This document shows positions 11,239 through 63,661 of a stretch of 64,000 bases of DNA, one piece after another; position 1 is the first letter of the stretch, and every line of letters starts with the position of its first letter. The stretch spans positions 7,573,121-7,637,120 of the forward strand of contig JASSKH010000029.1 in the NCBI GenBank assembly GCA_031763025.1, given 5' to 3'. The notes under the pieces were generated by a model, which was not told where the DNA came from, ran no database searches, and was given only the letters and a program-made list of their open reading frames with translations. A program made the translations under genes and the position numbers. The DNA comes from Macrocystis pyrifera (taxonomy: Eukaryota; Sar; Phaeophyceae; Laminariales; Laminariaceae).

Positions 11239-12960
11239 CTATTTGTCGGCCTGGTACCTTGCTACCCTATCTGCGGTCTCTCTGCTACTCTCTTCTACCG
11301 CGGTTTCCCTTCTACTCCTCCTGTTCCCCCCCCTGCCCCCATACACTTGTACGGTGTTCCTTCTACCCCTCCTGCTGTTACCCCTCCCCCCATTCCCTCT
11401 AACACTACCCGCAGCGGATGCACGGCGCTGTCTACTCAGCTTTGCCTCAGCCTCGTGCCACCTGCCCATGAACTGTTCAGCTGCTTCGAGGATTCCCCGG
11501 TACCACTTTCCCGTCTGTTTTGCTGCAGTGGGCCATAGTGCGGTCCCAACTCCAAAGACTAAGGGGGAGTCTTCCGTTGATCCCTCGGTGGCTTTGAACA
11601 CTCTAAGGTCCTCAGCAATGGCCCTAGGCCAAGTCTTGGGCTGCCCGCCTGGTTTCGGGCTCCCCCCAACAGCGATCGTCCCGAACATCAACCGACTGGG
11701 CAATCGCCCCTCGTGTTGCCGCACCAGAGCCCCCGCAAAGAAGAGTCGCCGTTTACGGATGGTCGTTTCGATACTTTCGCATCGTGTTATCCTGAGTGCC
11801 TTCGCATACGAGAGGGTGGTGTGGTCGGTGCGTAGTCGGCGCTGGAAGCCAATGACTCGCAGAAGGACTTCGTGGTGGGCTGATCGAAGCTTGGCGAAGT
11901 GGTCCGCATTGAGGGTCCACGTCACGCAACCGTACAGCGAGATCTCGATCACCTCGGCCTTCAGCATCCGGACTTTCAGACTAAGCGGTGCGTTCGTCCT
12001 ATCGTGCAGTTCCGGACCATACCGTTTGAGGCATGCCCGCATCAGACGGATTCGTCGCTCGATTTCGAAGGAGAGGTCAGCGTTCTCGTGGATAATGCCT
12101 CCTCCTAGGTATAAAAACTGGGTCGTCTGTTTATACTTTTGGCCTGCAGCTTCGATCGCGAGCGGTGAGGTGGTATACGTCTGATCCGGTGTTCGTAGGA
12201 GCATCGTCTCTGTCTTCTTCTCGGATACCGTGAGACCTACTGCTTCGAAGACAGTCACGATGGCTGTCATCATTCTTGCAAGGCCTTCCGCCGACTTCGA
12301 GACTATTATTCCCGCGTCGTCTGCATACAACATGCCCCACACAGCCCTTTGCACGCATGCCAACGGTTCCTCTTTTCCGACAACCCTGTCCTCTTCGAGA
12401 TGAACCAAATCCCTTACGATGCATTCGTCTTTGCTGAGGCGTACCAGCACGATGTGTATCGCAGCGGCGAAGAACACGTTGAACAGTAACGGCGATAGTA
12501 CGCAGCCTGGCCGCAGCCCCTGGGTTACATTGAACCAGTCCGAGTGTTCACCGTCATCCGCACGCACGCGAGCCCGCATGCCTTCGTGAAAATTGCGAAT
12601 GATTGTGAGCATCTTGGTTGGTACACCAAGGCGTGTGAGTACCTCCCACAACAGTTCTCGGTCGACAGAGTCGTACGCTTTCTGCAGGTCGATGAAGCAT
12701 CATGTACAGGGGGATTTTCTTCTGCCGTCCGAGCTCCTGCAGCCGGCGCACGACAAACAGCATATCGACTGTTGACCGTGCGGGGCGGAAGCCGCACTGT
12801 TCTTCAGGGAGTATATGCTCGGTCTCGCAGTAGTAGCTGCTTAGACGGGACGCAACGATTTTCAGCAACACCTTGCCTGCGTGAGCAACAAGCGAAATCC
12901 CTCTGTAGTTGTTGCAATCAGTTATATCCTTCTTTTTGTGAAGGGTTTTTATGATCGCAT
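11239..12960 (-). pseudogene. LINE reverse transcriptase, core and C-terminal part
   Basis: Copies element RNA into the genome in an intact element. Visible in order: finger motif [14 protein letters not shown] motif A as [12 protein letters not shown] (in the frame after the shift); [14 protein letters not shown]; and catalytic Y-A-D-D-A near 12325. A long open C-terminal region then ends in an Arg/Gly-rich tail at 11239. A one-base frameshift lies near 12700, between I-P-L-Y-M and F-I-D-L, and separates the finger from the palm. The 470-codon frame from 12651 to 11239 is itself intact. The nonsense codon at 12965 separates this part from the N-terminal part. Confidence 0.85.
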
Positions 12961-13735: not shown

Positions 13736-15630
13736 TCGACGCTCTCCATCATATACATGACAATGTGTATGTACCTTAATTTGGTTCTTTTTCCAAGTGT
13801 ATACTTCCATAATGGGACTGCAGTCCTAAAATAGGGGTAAAAAAAAAACCCAACCAGACTTCCCAAGTTTAGAATATGTATGTGCCGTGTCTCGATCAAA
13901 GCCGTAGCTCCCGTTGCAACCTCAGAACCGGCTGCCGCTGCTGCTGCTGCTGCTGCTGTTGCTGCCCCCACGGGCACGTGGGCATGCATGTTGACCCGAC
14001 ATTGCCCCCGAGAGGGGTAGGTGCGGTGGAGATAGCCACCCTGGAGAGCAAACTCCTCCGGGTAGTGGACCAAGTGTGGGACTCGCGCCAGCTCACCTCC
14101 TAAATATAGGTTAGTTGCGTTTTTTGTCGATACATATGGTAAAAAAGCTCGCGCCGACGCTCGACCCGGTTAGCGCCGAGGCTCCAATGCTACCGAGGAT
14201 GGATATATATATGTAGTAACGAAGAACGGCAGAAGACGTTGTTGTTGTTGTTGTTGTTGTGCCGTTGATCGAGTTAGTGTAATCGAAACCTGATCAGAAC
14301 AAATATATATTACCTTGGAACCGGTAATAATACACAACAACACCAGTTTCAAGCGTGACGAAAAAAAAACAAAGAAGAACACAAAAAAAACCGCGTTGGC
14401 TTTTGATAGATTGGAAAACCCATCAAGTTAATTATGACGGTGGTTATTGCTCCCTGGGTCACCCCCCATGGTTGGTACAGCGAGCAGTCACTATCCACCA
14501 AAACAGTGGGCACGCCGCGCTCCGCGCACCCCGCACCTAGGTGGGGGTTGATCCGATAGACTCCCCCCCCCCACCCGCCCACTTCCTCCCAACCGAGACT
14601 CGCTTGTTTACACCTTGCTACCTATTCAACTATGTTAAATCTCAAATCAAACCAATCAATCAGAGAGAAAAGATGCTTGGAACAACAAAAAGATAGATCT
14701 ATCTATATAGCTATGTATACGGCAGGAAGCAGAGAAGAAGGATAACTCTCCGAGTAACTAACCAACCAACTGTCCCGCCAAATAACGAACGCGCCGCAAT
14801 CAAATAATCAAACTTGGGGCTGCGGGGAGCAGCAAAAAAAAACAGCGAACAGCAGAGACAGAGAGGCGAACAAAGACGAAAGCACGCTATTGTTCCCTCG
14901 TGGAGGCTCGACCGGTGCATACATTCCCGCGCTAATTCCAAGCACTTTGTCCCCCCCAAAAAAACTGGGCGAAGCAGCAGTAGCAGAAGAAAGGAGGTTC
15001 TGTAACATGATAAGAGTGCTCTAAAGACTCGTTTATCATTCTGTAATGAATGGCATACATATCTGATCTGCATATACACCAAACATCAAACGTCGCGCAC
15101 GTTACCAACCCATCTCTCGTCTCTCTCTTGCAGTCCACTTTCTCCACCCAGCAAGCAAGCCAGCCAGCCAGTCAGCCAGCAAGCAAGCAACAAGCGGAGC
15201 TAAACAACTCACCCCCCCCCCCCCGGCGCCACCACTTCCCCTACCTATGGAGCTCTTCCTATGTAATTTACTACTCTCACACCCACCTATCCCTTCCGTC
15301 CCCCACCCTCATTCCCCCCTCTTTCACTTTTCATGTATCCTTCTCACCTGGGACAACAAAAGGCTAAAAGGCTGCGAGTATAGTTGAGCCGTCACACAAA
15401 AAAAAAAAATCACAAAAAATAACACGGGAGATCGATCGATCCATCCATCCATCCATCCATCTCACGGCGTGGAAGAAGCTCTCGCGTTATCTTAAGGGCG
15501 TACCTTGACTCCTTTTAGAACTTGCAAACAAACAAACAAAAAAACGCACGAATTTCAAAGAAGTTTTGTCCCCAAGCAAGAGGGTGCATCAGTTCTTCTA
15601 AAATACAAGGGTTATGGAAATGAGGGGGGG
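13736..15630. other. Repeat-rich intergenic DNA
   Basis: Holds CTG/CAG microsatellites (13930-13970; GTT repeats at 14237-14260), CAGC/CATC short repeats (15150-15185, 15440-15460) and short homopolymers. Open frames here are low-complexity or short. No gene recognised. Confidence 0.5.
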
Positions 15631-21827: not shown

Positions 21828-21983
21828 TGTCAGGGGACGGAATTTTCACCTTTTGACAGGCAGCAACTTCGCCTCGACATGCCTTGACCGGCAACAAACT
21901 AATAGGTTTTAGTGTGGAACACTCGGCCCTACATCCTTGACAGCGCACGTTTCGCCTTGCTTGACAAACATGCCTACTGACAT
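21828..21983. mobile_element. MITE family 2, copy 1
   Basis: About 156 bp with inverted ends (TGTCAGGGGAC / CTACTGACA, decayed) and internal words shared with the other copies: 'ttttcacctnttgacag', 'gcctcgacatgccttgac', 'aggttttagtgtggaac', 'cgccttgcttgac'. Confidence 0.8.
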
Positions 21984-22224
21984 ATTTGGTGTATAATAAC
22001 GGTACAAATTGATTTCTACTGCTGCTGAGCTCTTTTTCTGGTTTTACTGCTGCAGACGTATAATATAACAGATTGTGTGTTGAGTGTTTCTACGCAGGCC
22101 ACGGAGTTTGGGCGCGCTTCCGTGTGGCGTGCGTTCATACCTCAACCTCTCACGCTATGAAATATTAATATGTAATAGTCGCTCCCAATAATTTTGGGGA
22201 GTAAAAACTTAACTATGTTCGAGA

Positions 22225-23217: not shown

Positions 23218-24138
23218 TACGTACTGATTGTAGACCTGCTGTTGTGCAGGTTAAAAAAAAGAGGTATTTTTCGTACCAGAGGTGCGAGCATTATTTCTTG
23301 CGCCGTTCCCCTGGGCACCTCCCGGAGGTACTCGTACCCCGTACCAGTACGTGTGTGTTCTTCGGACATAACCGTTCTTTCTACCCAACTACATCAGCAC
23401 GCCCAGTGTCGCGCCCTGATTGTTTACTCGTAGAGAGCTACTCGTACAGCAGCACAAATTATGTGGTGACAGACTGCTGCAAGAACAAAAATATACCTTG
23501 CACGTCCGTGCACAAAATGTCTTCTAAATACTATCGATATGATATTAATAGTACACCAAGTACACACATCACATCAGTAGAGTGTCACCCTTACACGCAC
23601 CTGTCAAGAATTCGTACCTGGTACACTACATGATGCACCATAAAATACGACACTTGTAAAAACACTGCCGTGTTCAGCGCAACGCAACATCATCGTATAT
23701 ACTCCGGTATTGGTATAGCCCCCCCCCTCCCCGCTCTCCTTCCTCGCCCCCTGGCTTCGTATCGCAGAGGTGCGTTGCGTATATATTTATTAGACGTCCA
23801 CTTGCATGACCAGGCAAGACAAGAAAACATCGTCAAACGAAACTGAAAAAAGTACGTACTTCATTCTATGAATATGTCCGTGCGTCTGGTGATGCGTTGA
23901 ATAAAACAAGCATATCTGGCCCCGCAAGCCGCAAGCGCAAAGCGAAGGGAAGCACAGCGAAACACAACGAAACAACACAACCAACAAACAACCACCATGC
24001 ATCCACATGCATGCAAAAACAAAGAAAAGCAAAGACGAAGAGTTGAAACAAGAACTGAACAACAAGTACGTGTTGCCTCTTGTTCCCATTCAAAACAACG
24101 TACGCACGTGTCCGCGTGCCCTCGCTCCGAAAGCAACG
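23218..24138. other. Spacer, no gene seen
   Basis: Short frames only. Probably intronic or intergenic. Confidence 0.4.
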
Positions 24139-24294
24139 ATGTCAGGAGACATGTCAAGCAAGGCAAAACAACTTGCGCCGTCAAGGGTGTAGGGCCGAGT
24201 GTTCGATACTAACACCTAGTAATGTGGTGTCAGTCACGCATGTCAAGGCAAAAGTTGCTGTCTGTCAAGCGGTGAAAATGCTGTCTCCTGACAT
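24139..24294. mobile_element. MITE family 2, copy 2 (inverted, best ends)
   Basis: Ends are perfect or near-perfect inverse complements: ATGTCAGGAGACA at the left and TGTCTCCTGACAT at the right. The body is the reverse complement of copies 1 and 3. Confidence 0.88.
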
Positions 24295-33214: not shown

Positions 33215-35629
33215 CTAATCATGGCGGGCCGAAGAGCCCGTCGGAGCACCGCGGGACGCGTCTGAGTTGCGTGTTACCCCGCGAGCTAGGCTCCCAGTTT
33301 TATGGCGTTGCAAACACCACGATCCGTAGTTGGCGGTGCTGGAGGTTGTGTAGTTCGCCGACCGGAGGTTGATCTTGATCGGTCCAGGGTCGTCGAGGAA
33401 CCGGACGATATGGGTGTTGTTCGAGAGGGGTCCGAGGGTGTTTCTGAAGGGGGGTCCGAGGTGGCGCGATGGGAGATCTTGCCCAGCCACCACAGGCCGT
33501 AGCGAGCCTTGTACCAAAGGTGTGCCCCTGGCAGAAGTAAGGTGGAGCTGAACGTGCAGAGCCAAATGTCGCGGGGGACGAGGATGTACTTGGGGGCGAG
33601 GTAGATCTGACCTTGTGGTCGTGATAGCTCCCGCTGCGCGGCACCGATGCGCATCTGTCAGTGTTGTGTCGGGGTGTCGGACCAGTAGAGTAGGATGTGG
33701 CGTCTTGAGTGGTGAAGATCGAGTTCCTGCTCCCAGGAAAGGCTAAGCAGTCCGACCCAATGGGTCTCGTAGAGGACGGCGATAATCCCGCTACGACCGC
33801 GAACGAGTTGGTGGTCCGTGATATGTTCGACCTCGGGGCGTTCCGGTGGTGGTGAGATGTTGTCGAGGGTGACGTGGAAAGGGGGGGACTTGGCTGAGAA
33901 GGAGTTGAGCACGTACTGGGTGAGGTCGGAGGGTAGGTATTTGGGCGTGTCGGAAATGTCGTCTGGACTCCGGCAAGGCTTACAGCGCTCGACGGAGACG
34001 CGGCGTTTGGAGTCCCGTCCCGGAAGGTCGGAAGGTAAGTCGAGGTAGAGGAGTTTGTCGTGGAGGGATCGGTTGTCGGGAACGTCGGAGGCCGGCGCGA
34101 GGTCAACGGCGACAATCTTGAACGGCCCGATCCAGTTGAGGGAGAGCTTGGTCTTGAGCACGGTGGCGTTGGTACCTTTGGCGCCTTGGTTGATGGCAGC
34201 CGCGGAGTTGTAGACCCATGCCCAGCCGCCAACGGCGTAAGGCGGGGATAGGCGAAGGGCGTCCAAAATGGGGCTGTTGCGGCGGGCCAAAACGCGAAAC
34301 GGTGACGGCGTGGACTTCGCATACGAGGCGGGAGGCGCATTGTTGTCGCTCGGTGGCGAGGTTGCAGTAGGCCAGGTGGTCACGGTCGAGGCTCTGGTGG
34401 CCGCCAATGTTGGGGGGGGTCGAAGACCGAAAGAGGGAGACGTGGGAGTCGGCCCATGTGCACTTCGTTGGGGGCGAGGCCGGTAGAAGCGTTGATGGAG
34501 TTATTGTAGGCTGCTTCGACGTGCGCCAGAAACGTGTCCCCGTTCTTCTGCTGCTCGTTGCAACCCATGACCAGCATCAGGGCCATGGTGTGGTTGACAC
34601 GCTCTACGCCGCCATTCGTTCAGGGGTGGTACGAGCTGGTGTTGATCTTGTTGATGCCAAGGCGTTTGTAGAGGGCGTAGGAGAGTTTGGAGGTGAAGTG
34701 CAGGCCGTTATCGGAGAGAAGCGTGACGGGGGCACCCACAAGGAGGTATGTATTGGTCGACGAGGATGTCGGCGGTGCCGATGGCGGTGAACTGGGCGGC
34801 TGCCACCGCGTACATGCCAGCACGGCGGCTGAAGCGGTCGGTGAAGAGAAGAATGTAGGAGTTGCCGCGTGGTGTAAGGGGCAGCGGGCCGAAGTAGTCG
34901 ACGCTTACCGTGATGCCTGGGCCGTTGGGTAGGGGTAAGGAGAGGATGGGCCAGGGGGCGGTTTGGCGCGAGGTTTTGCGCGGCTGGCACTTGAGGCATC
35001 GGCGGGTCCACCAGCGGGCGGAAACGTCCATTCCAATCCACCAGAAGAAGCGCGCGAGCATGCTGACCGTGCTCGAAACTCCCAGGTGGCAGGAGGTGGT
35101 AGCGTGGCAGGTTTGTAGCACCCAAGGGCGCATCAACATCGGTACATAGATGGGCGGGGGAGGGGTGGAGAAAGGTTTCCTGTCTCCGGTGTTGAGGATC
35201 TTAGGTGGTCGTCGCACCAGAAGGATGGTGTCGTCGTCGGTGCAGTGGAGTTGGCTTTTGGCGGCGAGGGAATAGCACGTCCGAGAGCTGCGGGCGCCGA
35301 GACGATGGAAATTAATGCAGGAGATCGTTCGGCGGTGGGGCAGGAGAATTCAGGGAAATGAAGCGGATGGTGGCGGAGCAGAGGGGCTCGACGCGCTGTT
35401 CGCGCGCCCAGTCCGTGTGCGTGAAGTGCTCGACGCTGGAAAGAAGATGGGGGTCGTCATCAGGTTCGGCGACGGTCTCCGGCAGGCGGGGTGGAGGCCT
35501 TGTTGAAGGCCGTGGATGAGGCTGAGGTCGATCTTGAAGAGACGTCGCCGTCGGGTTCGACGACGGGCCCCGGGGGTGGAGTACCGGAGGTGGAGGAGAC
35601 GATGGGTACTCGAATGTCCCCTGGACCAT
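33215..35629 (-). pseudogene. Gypsy integrase-chromodomain polyprotein, element 1
   Basis: Inserts element DNA when intact. On the minus strand it shows a pre-integrase region (A-R-E-Q-R-V-E-P near 35400) and a zinc-binding H-H-C-C module (H-A-T-T-S-C-H-L-G, then C-L-K-C, about 35090-34985). The catalytic core follows, with first Asp in V-D-Y-F-G-P-L-P and F-T-D-R-F-S, second Asp in L-L-S-D-N-G-L-H-F-T-S near 34705, and Glu in G-G-V-E-R-V-N-H-T near 34600. A TGA at 34618 replaces the residue after S-S-Y-H-P. The 249-codon frame 34407-33658 holds the C-terminal integrase barrel (L-N-W-I-G-P-F-K-I) and a chromodomain-like V-E-H-I-T-D-H-Q-L-V-R-G. Beyond it lie G-L-W-W-L-G-K-I and, in another frame, H-I-V-R-F-L-D-D-P-G, resembling a Tudor-type barrel. 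At least four breaks are present. Confidence 0.8.
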
Positions 35630-52235: not shown

Positions 52236-52363
52236 CGCTGTATGACGTCGGTCGCCAAGTTTTCGAACGCCTCAGTCACGTTCAAGTCTGCCCTGGCGCT
52301 GGCCTCCAGGAAACGAACTCCGTGGCTCGCGGCGAGCTTCTCCCCCTGCTCAAACGATACCAC
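52236..52363 (-). CDS. RAB8: Rab8-type GTPase, exon 5 of the inferred gene
   Basis: Encodes G5 and the last helix. The acceptor 'gaatcccag' at 52364 opens V-V-S-F-E-Q-G-E-K-L-A in phase 0. Next come G-V-R-F-L-E-A-S-A-R, which contains the G5 motif (S-A-R where most Rabs have S-A-K), and N-V-T-E-A-F-E-N-L-A-T-D-V-I-Q-R. The donor CAGCG|GTACGTG at 52236/52235 leaves two bases of the Arg codon. The E-K-L-A and N-V-T-E-A-F pattern is closest to Rab8/Sec4 rather than Rab1 or Rab11 from my knowledge of the families. Confidence 0.93.
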
Positions 52364-54899: not shown

Positions 54900-56380
54900 A
54901 CGCAGGCGTTATCTACGCAGGGGTTATCGATGAAGGCGTTATCGATGTACTAGGGGTTGAACCGATGCTGGGGTTATCGATGCTGGGGTTTTCGATGTAG
55001 GGATTACCGATGCCGGGGTTACCGGTGCCGGGGATATTTTGTAGCCGATTCACCCCATTATTCGGAGCGATTTAAATCGGAATCGAAATCGGTAAATCGG
55101 GACGACTCTTTTTTACCGGCCAAACAGTCGCAAAACAGCGGCAAAACATCGGTGACACATCGTCCTGTGCATGACTAACTTAGAATTCAGTCATATTTAT
55201 CGCGAAACAACGACTCCGAACAAAGGATTCACTCACACGCCGAATTCGCTGATATATTGGATATATCGCCTGCGCCGAAAACCGATGTGTCAAAAAATCG
55301 GTAAACACATTCGATTCACAGCCTAACTGCTAATTATCGATGCAAGGGGTTATCGATACAGGGGCTATCGGTACAGGGGTTATCGGTGTAGGGGCTATCG
55401 ACACAGGGACTATCGATACAGGGATTATAGATACGCCGATTGTCGATATAGGGATTATCGATACACGGATCGTTGGTGACAGGGGATCTCGATACAGTGA
55501 TTATGTAGAAACTATCGGTGAGGAGGCCATCGTTGTAGAGGTTACCGATTCAGGGGTTACCGATTCAGGGGCTACCGATTCAGGGGTTACCGATTCAGGG
55601 GTTACCGATTCAGGGGTTACCGATTCAGGGCGTATCGCTGTACCAAGTAGGGGTTATCGACACAGGGAATACCAACGCAAGAATTATCGATATAAGGTGC
55701 AAGGATCCTCGATTCAGGGACGATGGGTATAGGGATAATGTATGAAGGGATGATCGGCGCAGGGGTTATCGGAAGAGAGATTCTTGCCGCAGGGATTACC
55801 AATACAGTTTACTATCGATTGTGGGGTTGATGATGCAGGGATTATCGATCCAGGCGTTATCGATACAGGAATTATAGCTGAGAGGGTTATCGGTGCGGAG
55901 ATTACCGATGCTTTGATTTTTCGATGCAGTTATCGGTGAGGAGGCCATCGATGTACGGGTTACCGATACGGTGGTTACCGACGCAGGGATTTTACCTACT
56001 CAAGGATTATCGGTGTACCAGGTAGAGGGTTATCGGTACGGGGATCATCGATACAGGGAATACCCACACAAGAATTATCGATACAGGCATTATCGATACA
56101 GGGAAAATCGATACGGGCATTATCGATAATGGGATAATTCTGGGGTTGTCCATGCATGTTTTATCGATGCAGGGCTTATCGATTCAAGGAACAAATAAAC
56201 AGGGGTTATCGATTCAGTGATTGGCGAAGGGTGCAGGGGCTATCGACACAGGGTATCCATGCAGGGGTCACTGATACTGGGTGTAGGGATTACACCGTTG
56301 CTGGGGTCATCGATGCAGGGAATATCGACACAGGAGTTATCGATACAGTAATCGATGCAGAGGTTCACGACTCACAGAGA
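54900..56380. repeat. GGGNTTATCGATACA minisatellite
   Basis: About 1.5 kb of variants of a 15-16 bp unit ('aggggttatcgataca', 'caggggttaccgatt'). At 55545-55630 the period is exactly 15 bp, so it reads as repeated G-V-T-D-S. It lies in a Rab8 intron and I do not treat it as coding. Confidence 0.85.
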
Positions 56381-56778: not shown

Positions 56779-56942
56779 TCTGTTCTCCTGGGCCACGTCG
56801 CACTTGTTCCCCACGAGGATGGTGTTCACCTCGGGGGAGGCGTTCAGCTCGATCTGTCGCATCCAGTTCGTCACGTTTCGGAACGATTTTTCGTCCGAAA
56901 CGTCGTACACGAGCAGAATGCCCATGCTCCCTCTGTAGTAAG
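56779..56942 (-). CDS. RAB8: Rab8-type GTPase, exon 4 of the inferred gene
   Basis: Encodes the middle of the G domain. The acceptor 'tcattag' at 56943 joins CT to the G left by the upstream exon, giving [20 protein letters not shown], which covers the RabF4 and RabF5 regions. The helix N-W-M-R-Q-I-E follows, then G-N-K-C-D, the G4 guanine-specificity motif (NKxD). The donor AGA|GTGAGT at 56779/56778 is strong and in phase 0. All key residues are present. Confidence 0.95.
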
Positions 56943-59348: not shown

Positions 59349-59449
59349 CTGACGTGATGTTCCGGAAACGCTCCTGCCCCGCGGTGTCCCAGATTTGGAG
59401 CTTCACCTTCTTCCCCCGCAAAATGGCCGTCTTGATCTTGAAGTCGATC
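59349..59449 (-). CDS. RAB8: Rab8-type GTPase, exon 3 of the inferred gene
   Basis: Encodes the end of switch I through switch II. The acceptor 'ggcggcag' at 59450 gives one base that completes the Gly of T-I-G-I-D-F-K. Then come a lysine-rich strand and [14 protein letters not shown], which contains the G3 motif with the catalytic Gln and the RabF2/F3 regions, then N-I-T-S. The donor GTCAG|GTGAGG at 59349/59348 leaves one base. T-I-G-I-D-F-K (Ile rather than Val) fits Rab8/Sec4. The 33 complete codons show no departures from the family. Confidence 0.95.
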
Positions 59450-60002: not shown

Positions 60003-60679
60003 GTGAATTCATTTCTGCAGATGATTGTTTGACACCAACCACTATGTACCGAAATATAAGCACCATTTTGGTTTAACAATTAGTGTGAAACCGGTTCTTA
60101 AACTACGGGACAGAGCGGAATAAATCATTAACCTAAAAACATTTGGGTGAATTATTTTTTTTTTGTCGATTTTGCACACGATGCTTTTTTTTTTTCTTCA
60201 GATTTTGTCGGTGGAGGTGTCGGTCTCGCCGCCCCCCCCCCCCCCCTCCCCTGAAACAAAAATTCGTCGGCTTTATCTATCTTGACAAGCGAAGTCAAAG
60301 ACCATATACAATAGGGTGATTGACGAGCGTTTTTTATCGTCTTCCTCGATTGCACCATGGGAGCACCATGGAAAAACAAAAAAAAAAACAAAAATAGATG
60401 GAAGCACCAAGGAGACGGGGACCTAAGGTGCACCCATCGTCATGCTTGGCCCTGTTCGTTTAACACTATCACACCAGGGTGATGAGACACCAACCCCCCG
60501 GGACGAATTTCAGAATCGGTTTCCTCCAAAACATGCCTTAAGGGGGACACAAAAAACGAAAATGGTGGATTTCTTGGAAATTTTTCGTCGAAAAGGTTTG
60601 CATAAGAGACACATTGTTGGGCGTACTCGGTACGCCCTCCCTGATGTCGAGAATCCCAGCTTCGAATATCAAATCGTCC
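60003..60679. other. Intron sequence, nothing recognised
   Basis: Part of Rab8 intron 1 (59450-63587) with T, C and A homopolymers (60150-60245, 60360-60390). Confidence 0.5.
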
Positions 60680-61235
60680 CAGGGGGGGGGCGGGGGCGGG
60701 TGTACTCGATATCATGCATGGCCGTAGTCGTGTGACCATAGACCCTCGCATCCCTACAATGCCGGGACGGAGCACGTCGGGTTTTCACAGACCAGGTAGA
60801 CATTGCTTGCAACAAGCGCGAAGCGAAACGTGAGGTGTTGGGCGAGTCGCATGAAGGGTGAGCTGCATCCTAGTAAGAACCGCTTTTGAGGCGGATTTTC
60901 TTGCATGTGGATGACAGCGTCAAAGAATTGATTTGATTTCTGGTTTGGCCAGTTCCAGAGACAGCAATGGGTTTACTATGTATAACTGCCTCGTGGGTGC
61001 CTTACCATATACACACTACAGTACGTGATACGATCATCCCCCTTTTGCGGAGGGAAGGCTCTCCCCGCACAAAAAAACATCTAACTCGACCGCCAGCCGT
61101 GGTAACCGCCAAGCGAAAACACACACAAAACGGTACGCTGGCTGTCTAGCTCACGCAGTGAGAGGAGTGTTTTACAGCGTCGTCGGCAACCGACGCAAAC
61201 CCAACCTATATATACCAGGGGGGGGGGGGGGGGGG
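60680..61235 (-). repeat. C/G-bounded dispersed repeat, copy J (full length)
   Basis: From a G-rich start and 'gtgtactcgatatcatgcat' through all landmarks to 'cccaacctatatatacca' and a 19-base G run. Confidence 0.9.
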
Positions 61236-62164: not shown

Positions 62165-62205
62165 GGTTACTGACGAAGCAGACACGCGCCCAATAGTTGA
62201 TTTCG
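62165..62205 (-). repeat. Isolated copy of the Rab8 exon-end/donor repeat
   Basis: On the gene strand it reads 'atcaactattgggcgcgtg' followed by 'tctgcttcgtcagta', a diverged copy of the exon 63588-63661 end and following intron start. Confidence 0.65.
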
Positions 62206-62449
62206 TCTCCCCGAAACCGGAAAACAAATATAATCCCTCTCCTTGGCATTCTTGACGCATTTGGCGCACTGTATTTGTGTACGAAGTATAGCTGGTATTT
62301 TCATCTCGAGGGCCAGCCAAAATAATAAAAATACCATGATGAAAAAAAAATACAAAAAAAAAAAAAACCCGAATATTATTTGCTGACTCTGAATAATGAT
62401 GGTGACATTGCTACCAGGTATTTTTTTAGGTGATTTAGACAGTAAGGTA

Positions 62450-62656
62450 ATGCAGCTCACCCTTCATGCGACTCGCCGGGCACCTCACGTTTCGCTTCGC
62501 GCTTGTTGCAAGCAATGTCTGCCTGGTCTGTGAAAACCCGACGTGCTCCGTCCCGGCATTGTAGGGATGCGAGGGTCTATGGTCATACGATTACGGCCAT
62601 GCATGAGATCGAGTACATCTCTCCTATTGAGTACACCCCCCCCCCCCCCCCCCCCC
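62450..62656 (+). repeat. C/G-bounded dispersed repeat, copy K (3' part)
   Basis: Starts at 'gcagctcacccttcatgcg', ends 'ctcctattgagtaca' plus about 21 C. The upstream half is absent. Confidence 0.85.
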
Positions 62657-62850
62657 CGCCGCCCGAGAACTGGTCGTCTCTGAGCCCGGGGGCATATTTT
62701 GAAGGGGTCGCCCCCCGCTCCAATGGCCGAAAAATAGGCCTACCGACGAAGGAGACACTTGCCATCATACCCAATGGTTGAAGTACAGGACTACCGACGA
62801 AGCAGACACGCACCCAATGGTTGGAATACAGGCGACCCCGGGAACCGAAC

Positions 62851-63004
62851 CTGTCAGGAGACAGCATTTTCACCTCTTGACAGACAGCAACTTTTGCCTC
62901 GACATGCCTTGACTGACACCAAACTACCAGGTTTTAGTGTGGAACAATCGGCCCTGCACCTTTGACAGCGCACGCTTCGCCTTGCTTGACATGTCTCCTG
63001 GCAT
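62851..63004. mobile_element. MITE family 2, copy 3
   Basis: Ends CTGTCAGGAGACAG and TGTCTCCTGGCA, with the full internal word set shared with 21828-21983. Inserted within a duplicated exon fragment. Confidence 0.88.
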
Positions 63005-63179
63005 CTTTGACGAGAACTGGTCGTCGCTGTATCTGGGTACACTGTCTTTCAAGGGGGCTTCACACCCCCGATAACGGTTGCAAAGCAGGACTACCGACGA
63101 AGCCGACACTCACATTCCTCAAGCCCACTGGTGGAAGCACAGGAGGACTAGCGACAAAGCAGACACAACACCCAATGTT

Positions 63180-63345
63180 TGAAATATGGCAAGGCTGTTT
63201 ACGGGTCGGGCCAAAATTCGCGGGTCGAGTCGGGTCGGGTCGGGTCGGGTCGGGTCACCTAACCCGACACGACCTGACTCATGAGATTTCGAAGACATCC
63301 TGAAGATCTCCTGACCCGACCCGACCCGACCAGTAAGATTTTGAA
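63180..63345. repeat. Inverted GGGTC/GACCC repeats
   Basis: Six or more tandem GGGTC units (63208-63255) are followed by GACCC units (63310-63332) and can form a large hairpin. Repeated 'gaagacntcctgaagatct' words lie between. Confidence 0.75.
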
Positions 63346-63587
63346 GACCTCCTGATCTGTGAACATCCATGAACAATGAATGTATAGGACCTCGATAGTT
63401 GGCCGTCTCTTTTGTATCTGGTTGTAGATTTTGAAGGACCCTCCTCCAATGGTTAAAGACAGATAGGGCTACCGACGACGAGGAAACTTGTCACACCCAA
63501 TGGTTGCAATAGAGGACTACCGACGAAGCAGAAACTTGTCACACCCAATGGTTGCAATAAAGGACTACCGACGAAGCAGACGCGCAC

Positions 63588-63661
63588 CCAATGGTTGAAA
63601 TGTAGGACCCCGAGAACTGGTCGTCGCTGTACCGGAGGAGCAGGCAGCTTTTCCCCCACCC
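63588..63661 (-). CDS. RAB8: Rab8-type GTPase, P-loop exon
   Basis: Encodes the P-loop end and switch I. The acceptor 'ttcttctatcag' at 63662 is followed by G-W-G-K-S-C-L-L-L-R-Y, then S-D-D-Q-F-S-G-S-Y-I-S-T-I and two bases of Gly. The donor CATTGG|GTGCGCG is at 63588/63587. The position before the last P-loop Gly is Val in nearly all Rabs and Trp here. One G fewer in the five-G run at 63653-63657, with a phase-1 exon start, would give the usual Val, so a homopolymer indel is likely. The exon encoding the N-terminus up to the start of the P-loop is not seen and should lie beyond 64000. The five exons here total 564 bases (187 residues). Confidence 0.9.

Follow-up and report, generated by a model that had tools for sequence, protein, structure and literature searches.

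A 5' splice site of a Rab8-like gene in Macrocystis pyrifera heads a tandem array that is probably private to its locus

Two kinds of described system stand close to the locus that we report here. The first is competition between identical 5' splice sites. Human minigenes that carried two strong donors of identical sequence, flanked by long introns, were spliced exclusively from the upstream one, and near-equal human donors beside long introns also showed an upstream preference; without a strength filter, however, about 60% of human events favoured the downstream donor, whichever of the four intron-length classes was considered, and when both minigene donors were weakened, upstream use was retained in shorter exons while larger exons were skipped (PMC9225289). 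The second is intron gain by tandem duplication of the adjoining exon, with reported cases in the potato RdRp gene (PMC4974935) and in fission yeast (PMC3629103).

The locus lies in a stretch of 64,000 nucleotides of the Macrocystis pyrifera genome (hereafter the window) and shares features with both. As in the human work, tandem donors of equal U1 pairing follow one acceptor and the flanking introns are long; unlike those of PMC9225289, the donors here are natural and weak, belong to a non-human gene and include five extra GT copies from +43 to +817. As in the potato and fission yeast cases, an intron contains tandem copies of the exon next to it, and beside these cases we can set a site that is intronless in all paralogous exons aligned across it. 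In contrast to those cases, we found no AGGT duplication supplying both splice sites and half of each unit is already intronic, and intron gain here is putative. The locus is also like a local tandem duplication or minisatellite, with head-to-tail units of 43-57 bp, copy-specific changes and near-exact copies at one locus, but the first unit of the array spans the end of a coding exon plus its donor and is thus partly coding-constrained. Among the matches listed for a few word choices in the open-licence literature, no paper described a splice donor multiplied in a private array of this sort. A repeat across a splice donor is a known type of mutation, and the present one looks like a fresh example of it rather than a new mechanism.

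The host gene occupies the minus strand of the window, which holds four of its exons (2-5), all GT-AG (Table 1). Joined together, these exons match the Pfam Ras family at 1.9e-55, and Rab-8A accounts for the top 13 among the 60 PDB sequences listed, ahead of Rab-10 and others, for a query that contained stray residues at the exon junctions. The sequence-only reading had named the gene as Rab8, and a Ras-family fragment with Rab-8A as the best of the listed matches bears out a Rab8-like identity. By tblastn, exon 2 scores E 9.6e-8 against a Rab1A-like and 5.5e-6 against a Rab8A-like query. Its 3' end reads ...SYISTIG, with CAACCATTGG directly followed by GTGCGC, and falls just past the switch I threonine; its terminal 20 bases open the first repeat unit, J0. 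A search of the 19,880 bases adjoining the window edge (L004 and L067) did not reveal exon 1, which was located in L068. The introns on either side of exon 2 measure 26138 and 4138 nt.

Table 1. Exons of the Rab8-like gene, repeat units of its second intron and the inserted element. Positions are those of the window unless a locus is named; a slash marks an exon boundary.
Feature	Positions	Strand	Description
Exon 1	L068:5977-5920		outside the window, 26138 bases upstream of exon 2
Exon 2	63588..63661	-	74 nt; P-loop end to switch I (...GKSCLLLRYSDDQFSGSYISTIG); acceptor tctatcag/, donor CATTGG/gtgcgc
Exon 3	59349..59449	-	101 nt; G/IDFKIKT...NITS
Exon 4	56779..56942	-	164 nt; AYYRG...QENR
Exon 5	52236..52363	-	128 nt; VVSFEQ...DVIQ
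Unit J0, 43 bp	63565..63607	-	contains the true donor, GT 63587-63586
Unit J1, 48 bp	63517..63564	-	donor copy +43, GT 63544-63543
Unit J2, 48 bp	63469..63516	-	donor copy +91, GT 63496-63495
Spacer K1 (ATTGGAGG) and exon-like copy E1	63374..63454	-	junction place without GT; E1 without ATTGG/GT
Unit J5	63148..63190	-	donor copy +416; nhmmer E 4.1e-11 (J5 was in the model)
Unit J6, diverged	63091..63147	-	junction without GT; nhmmer E 1.7e-11 (J6 pieces in the model)
Exon-like copy E2	63011..63031	-	TACAGCGACGACCAGTTCTCG, identical to exon bases 63631-63611, 21/21
Dispersed element, about 158 bp	62852..63009	-	terminal inverted repeats, MITE-like; inserted within E2
Unit J3	62791..62833	-	donor copy +774, GT 62813-62812
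Unit J4	62740..62790	-	donor copy +817 (GTATGA)
Spacer K3 and exon-like copy E3	62662..62735	-	E3 continues into a G run
Unit J7, outlying, degenerate	62165..62201	-	junction ATTGGGC, without GT; nhmmer E 2.1e-6

The exon 2 donor is the first unit of a tandem array on the minus strand, as had been proposed from the letters of the sequence, and the junction is indeed repeated 43 and 91 bases downstream: CAACCATTGGGTG is exact at 63585-63597, 63542-63554 and 63494-63506 (minus strand). Copies farther away had also been announced; the same word is exact again at 62811-62823 and the array reaches to about 62165. Head-to-tail copies of the junction exceed chance expectation in the window. With up to two mismatches, CAACCATTGGGTG has 9 matches there against 2.13 expected, a count that no shuffle reached, and two of the nine lie outside this intron (at 14462 and 39297). 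For CTTCGTCGGTAGTCC all 7 matches in the window fall in this intron, against 0.13 expected, and TRF reports an array of 48-base period at 63465-63608. Two parts of the earlier description hold only for some of the copies. The start of the intron was said to be repeated with the junction, and the 19-mer TCTGCTTCGTCGGTAGTCC does follow junctions 1 and 2 exactly (and is exact once more at 62788-62806), but it has diverged after the third; likewise, the claim that every copy carries the same junction applies to J0-J5, which keep ATTGGGT, and fails for J6 and J7, which lack it.

The basic unit, J, can be written TCCTACATTTCAACCATTGG/GTGCGCGTCTGCTTCGTCGGTAG; units span 43-57 bp, and J0 is made of 20 exonic and 23 intronic bases. 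Identity among the eight J units ranges from 74 to 92% over 28 pairs, gaps not counted. An nhmmer model of J has eight matches in the window at E<1e-5, all in intron 2 and on one strand, seven of which overlap training rows, so that only J7 is independent of the model. Copies of the gene's other three donors and four acceptors were absent from the window at E<0.03, the best chance match being a single one of 14 bases to the exon 4 donor at E 0.03.

The array is more extensive than first described, with the junction units nested in a looser unit of about 190-220 bases that combines an exon-like piece E, junction units J and a spacer K and occurs about four times. The body of the exon is copied as well, exactly in E2 and at 20/21 for an overlapping exon 21-mer at 62682-62662; E1 is degenerate (exon 63628-63589 aligned to 63410-63374, score 16.5). 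Each exon-like copy is preceded by spacer K, and the exon-like pieces are spaced 218, 382 and 347 bases apart, the last distance becoming 189 once the 158-bp element is subtracted. Between two intronic copies the exon-like piece agrees at about 18 of 19 positions (counted by eye), against 44 of 59 plus 11 gaps for the flank; gene conversion or constraint might lie behind this better preservation, though the numbers are small.

At least one dispersed element seems to have entered the array after it had formed, and the array appears to predate the landing of this element of about 158 bp. Further copies of it lie at 21828-21988 and 24134-24293 in the window, and genome-wide it has 2636 first-look candidates; scoring 40 of these, itself included, confirmed every one as a match. 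The stretch of CGGGT repeats within the array, at 63190-63299, may be another insertion since it has a 78% relative beyond the window, at L004:2946-3054. By eye, an inverted-orientation repeat with C/G runs can be seen at about 62447-62640 and at 60644-60869, the former sitting between the main array and the outlying J7.

We then consider the distribution of these sequences over the genome searched (537,376,219 bases in 223 contigs), for which all counts are lower bounds, very common words having been skipped. With up to two mismatches, TCTGCTTCGTCGGTAGTCC has 11 matches, 6 of them in this intron, and its backwards control has 8; all four matches with 0-1 mismatch are in this intron, and the five elsewhere all have 2 mismatches. 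An exon 22-mer allowed up to three mismatches has 7 matches (control 1), of which three are in the intron (0, 1 and 3 mismatches) and four elsewhere, each with 3 mismatches. The 90-base junction has three matches, all at this locus. Dispersed repeats are detectable by this kind of pattern search because the element of about 158 bp gave its 2636 candidates, and a dispersed repeat that landed at the exon is rejected, as the near-exact copies counted genome-wide are confined to the locus. Spacer K was uninformative as a genome marker (72 matches with up to two mismatches and 42 backwards); four matches have 1 mismatch, two of them here. Pattern scans of viral and of prokaryote contigs gave 0 matches in each, and Rfam had nothing in the window at gathering score.

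Since all copies with 0-1 mismatch are found here, local tandem duplication at this very site is the most likely origin of the array. Altogether, we consider it probable that this is a locus-private array produced by local tandem duplication, that it is a functionless by-product and that the first donor is still used. In such a process, duplication would recur locally across one exon-intron junction of the Rab8-like gene, with replication slippage or unequal exchange as the presumed source; the array would have no function of its own, and the true first donor would keep being spliced, the 74-nt exon being recognised through exon definition.

A different history, which we judge unlikely, is that intron 2 is itself young and arose when the exon was duplicated in tandem, as in tandem genomic duplication of the Rogers type. 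Exon 2 with its donor would then be the first copy, the beginning of exon 3 the last one, and the copies in between would be decayed intron, so that a serial duplication of the switch I exon would have left its intermediates, with several equal donors, still legible. The intron does hold copies of the exon that lies upstream of it, and tandem-repeat introns that seem to derive from duplication are reported in fission yeast (PMC3629103, PMC4974935). Moreover, the site is uninterrupted in 17 of 17 distinct paralogous GTPase exons whose alignment spans it. This count comes from 43 loci scanned with the Rab sequence, of which 18 do not cover the site (three belong to this gene) and 25 do; two of the latter belong to this gene, five to a gene already counted and one is gapped at the site, and three further matches without a locus of their own, one of them the L054 gene, were left out. 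Thirteen of the 17 exons were displayed with context around the site. However, the count is biased against seeing exons split at the site, because such an exon would fail to span it in the alignment; in the rows listed for the 15 loci of other genes that do not cover the site, none begins or ends at this point. In addition, two Rab1-like paralogs carry an intron about three codons downstream, so that an intron shift is also possible.

The similarity of the spacers to exon 3 is weak and points in both directions. K1 has CTTCAAAATC right after CATTGG, close in sequence to exon 3 (CTTCAAGATC), and when spacers are compared with the exon 3 start at the expected place, the background fraction is 0.7-1.4% for K1 and 2-4% for K3, in a similarity test that was picked after the sequence had been viewed. 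K2, on the other hand, is unlike exon 3 (fraction 0.65-0.83), and similarity to exon 3 that is not anchored at that place is no better than elsewhere in the intron. No clear exon 2 copy is apparent in the 3' tail of the intron (score 9), and the unit has 23 intronic bases that are non-exonic; with half of every unit intronic, the donor is older than the small units, which argues against gain by duplication. Should intron 2 be young after all, it would offer a legible intermediate of intron gain by duplication; should it not be, the array is a tolerated local repeat and mainly a caution for gene prediction.

The preferred reading of a functionless local array leaves the question of donor choice. 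The locus is a natural test of tandem equal donors, as splicing must choose among junctions that are locally the same in sequence, and a mistake towards a near copy disrupts the frame. The +43 and +91 copies match the true donor in U1 pairing (-4.9 and -4.9 versus -5.0 kcal/mol); the named rows have their separator one base off and slightly unequal windows, and the scan rows reproduce these three near values. As a point against first-donor use, all three farther copies out-pair the true donor (-6.8 at +416, -8.0 at +774 and -5.4 kcal/mol at +817), which is itself weak relative to the donors of exons 3 and 4 (-11.7 and -8.6 kcal/mol; exon 5, -4.8). Among the five distances, only 774 is divisible by 3, and the +774 extension crosses stops though its length preserves the frame. 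The statement that the near copies break the frame proved right in the Rab frame, with one refinement: use of +43 shifts the frame and runs into a stop in exon 5, at codon 132 out of 170 in the joined fragment, and use of +91 meets a TGA at codon 41, inside the extension.

Equal pairing of the near copies, a weak true donor and the truncated products that either near copy would give are all consistent with putative working alternative donors that would lower or tune Rab8 output via frameshifted transcripts, a role that we nevertheless find quite improbable. In the human work, preference goes to the first of near-equal donors when the flanking introns are long (PMC9225289), and a 74-base exon between introns of 26 and 4.1 kb should, by exon definition, be spliced at its first donor. 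Splicing can thus probably ignore the copies and use the first donor; the label of decoy implies genuine competition, whereas the human results would predict first-donor use.

The array had been called expanding, a description that finds no support in the single assembly analysed. The gene had been called an essential GTPase, a qualification that is unsupported because a second Rab8-like gene exists and the assembled gene is frameshifted in its P-loop. The second gene (GVGKT...TTIGIDFKIK) is on C221, and a 54-aa segment of it has 60 listed PDB matches, of which the top 12 are Rab-8A. In the gene of the window, exon 1 ends in phase 1 (GACAGCG/GTGAGT), a phase shared by the presumed first exon of the C221 paralog (GATAGCG/GTGAGT). 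As assembled, exons 1 and 2 together read GDSGVGEKLP..., the first stop comes at codon 137 of 175, and the P-loop motif GxxxxGK[S/T] is not intact in frame from the start codon. Relative to exon 1 and to the C221 paralog, the reading frame departs by +1 in a run of five G at 63657-63653 (GTGGGGGAAAAGC), in the P-loop part of exon 2. Elsewhere in exons 2-5 the Rab frame stays open, so that the frameshift could stem from an assembly error or from a recent lesion.

This break in the G run, together with the homopolymer-rich region around it, might raise the suspicion that the array as a whole is an assembly artefact, but the units differ by substitutions and by indels of at least 5 bp and a dispersed element is located among them; as they are only 74-92% identical, a simple assembly duplication is disfavoured and we hold an artefact to be very improbable. 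Finally, mutually exclusive alternative exons for switch I are hardly credible: several copies encode near-coding peptides (SFIATI, SSIATI, ACIPTI, SCTSTI) and the J units terminate in TAG directly ahead of the next exon-like piece, yet SYISTI occurs only in the true exon among the five units translated, the GKSCLLLR part was not seen beside the exon-like copies, E2 is interrupted by the dispersed element, E3 runs on into a G run and E1 lacks the junction motif.

Other repeats are present in the window. Intron 4 of the Rab8-like gene contains 15-bp tandem repeats (TTATCGATACAGGGG-like) at 54902-55630 and 56026-56138. Two minus-strand reading frames, at 11239-12699 (RVT_1, 9e-19) and 34708-35349 (integrase zinc-binding, 1.8e-13), are probably the reverse transcriptase and integrase remains of retroelements.
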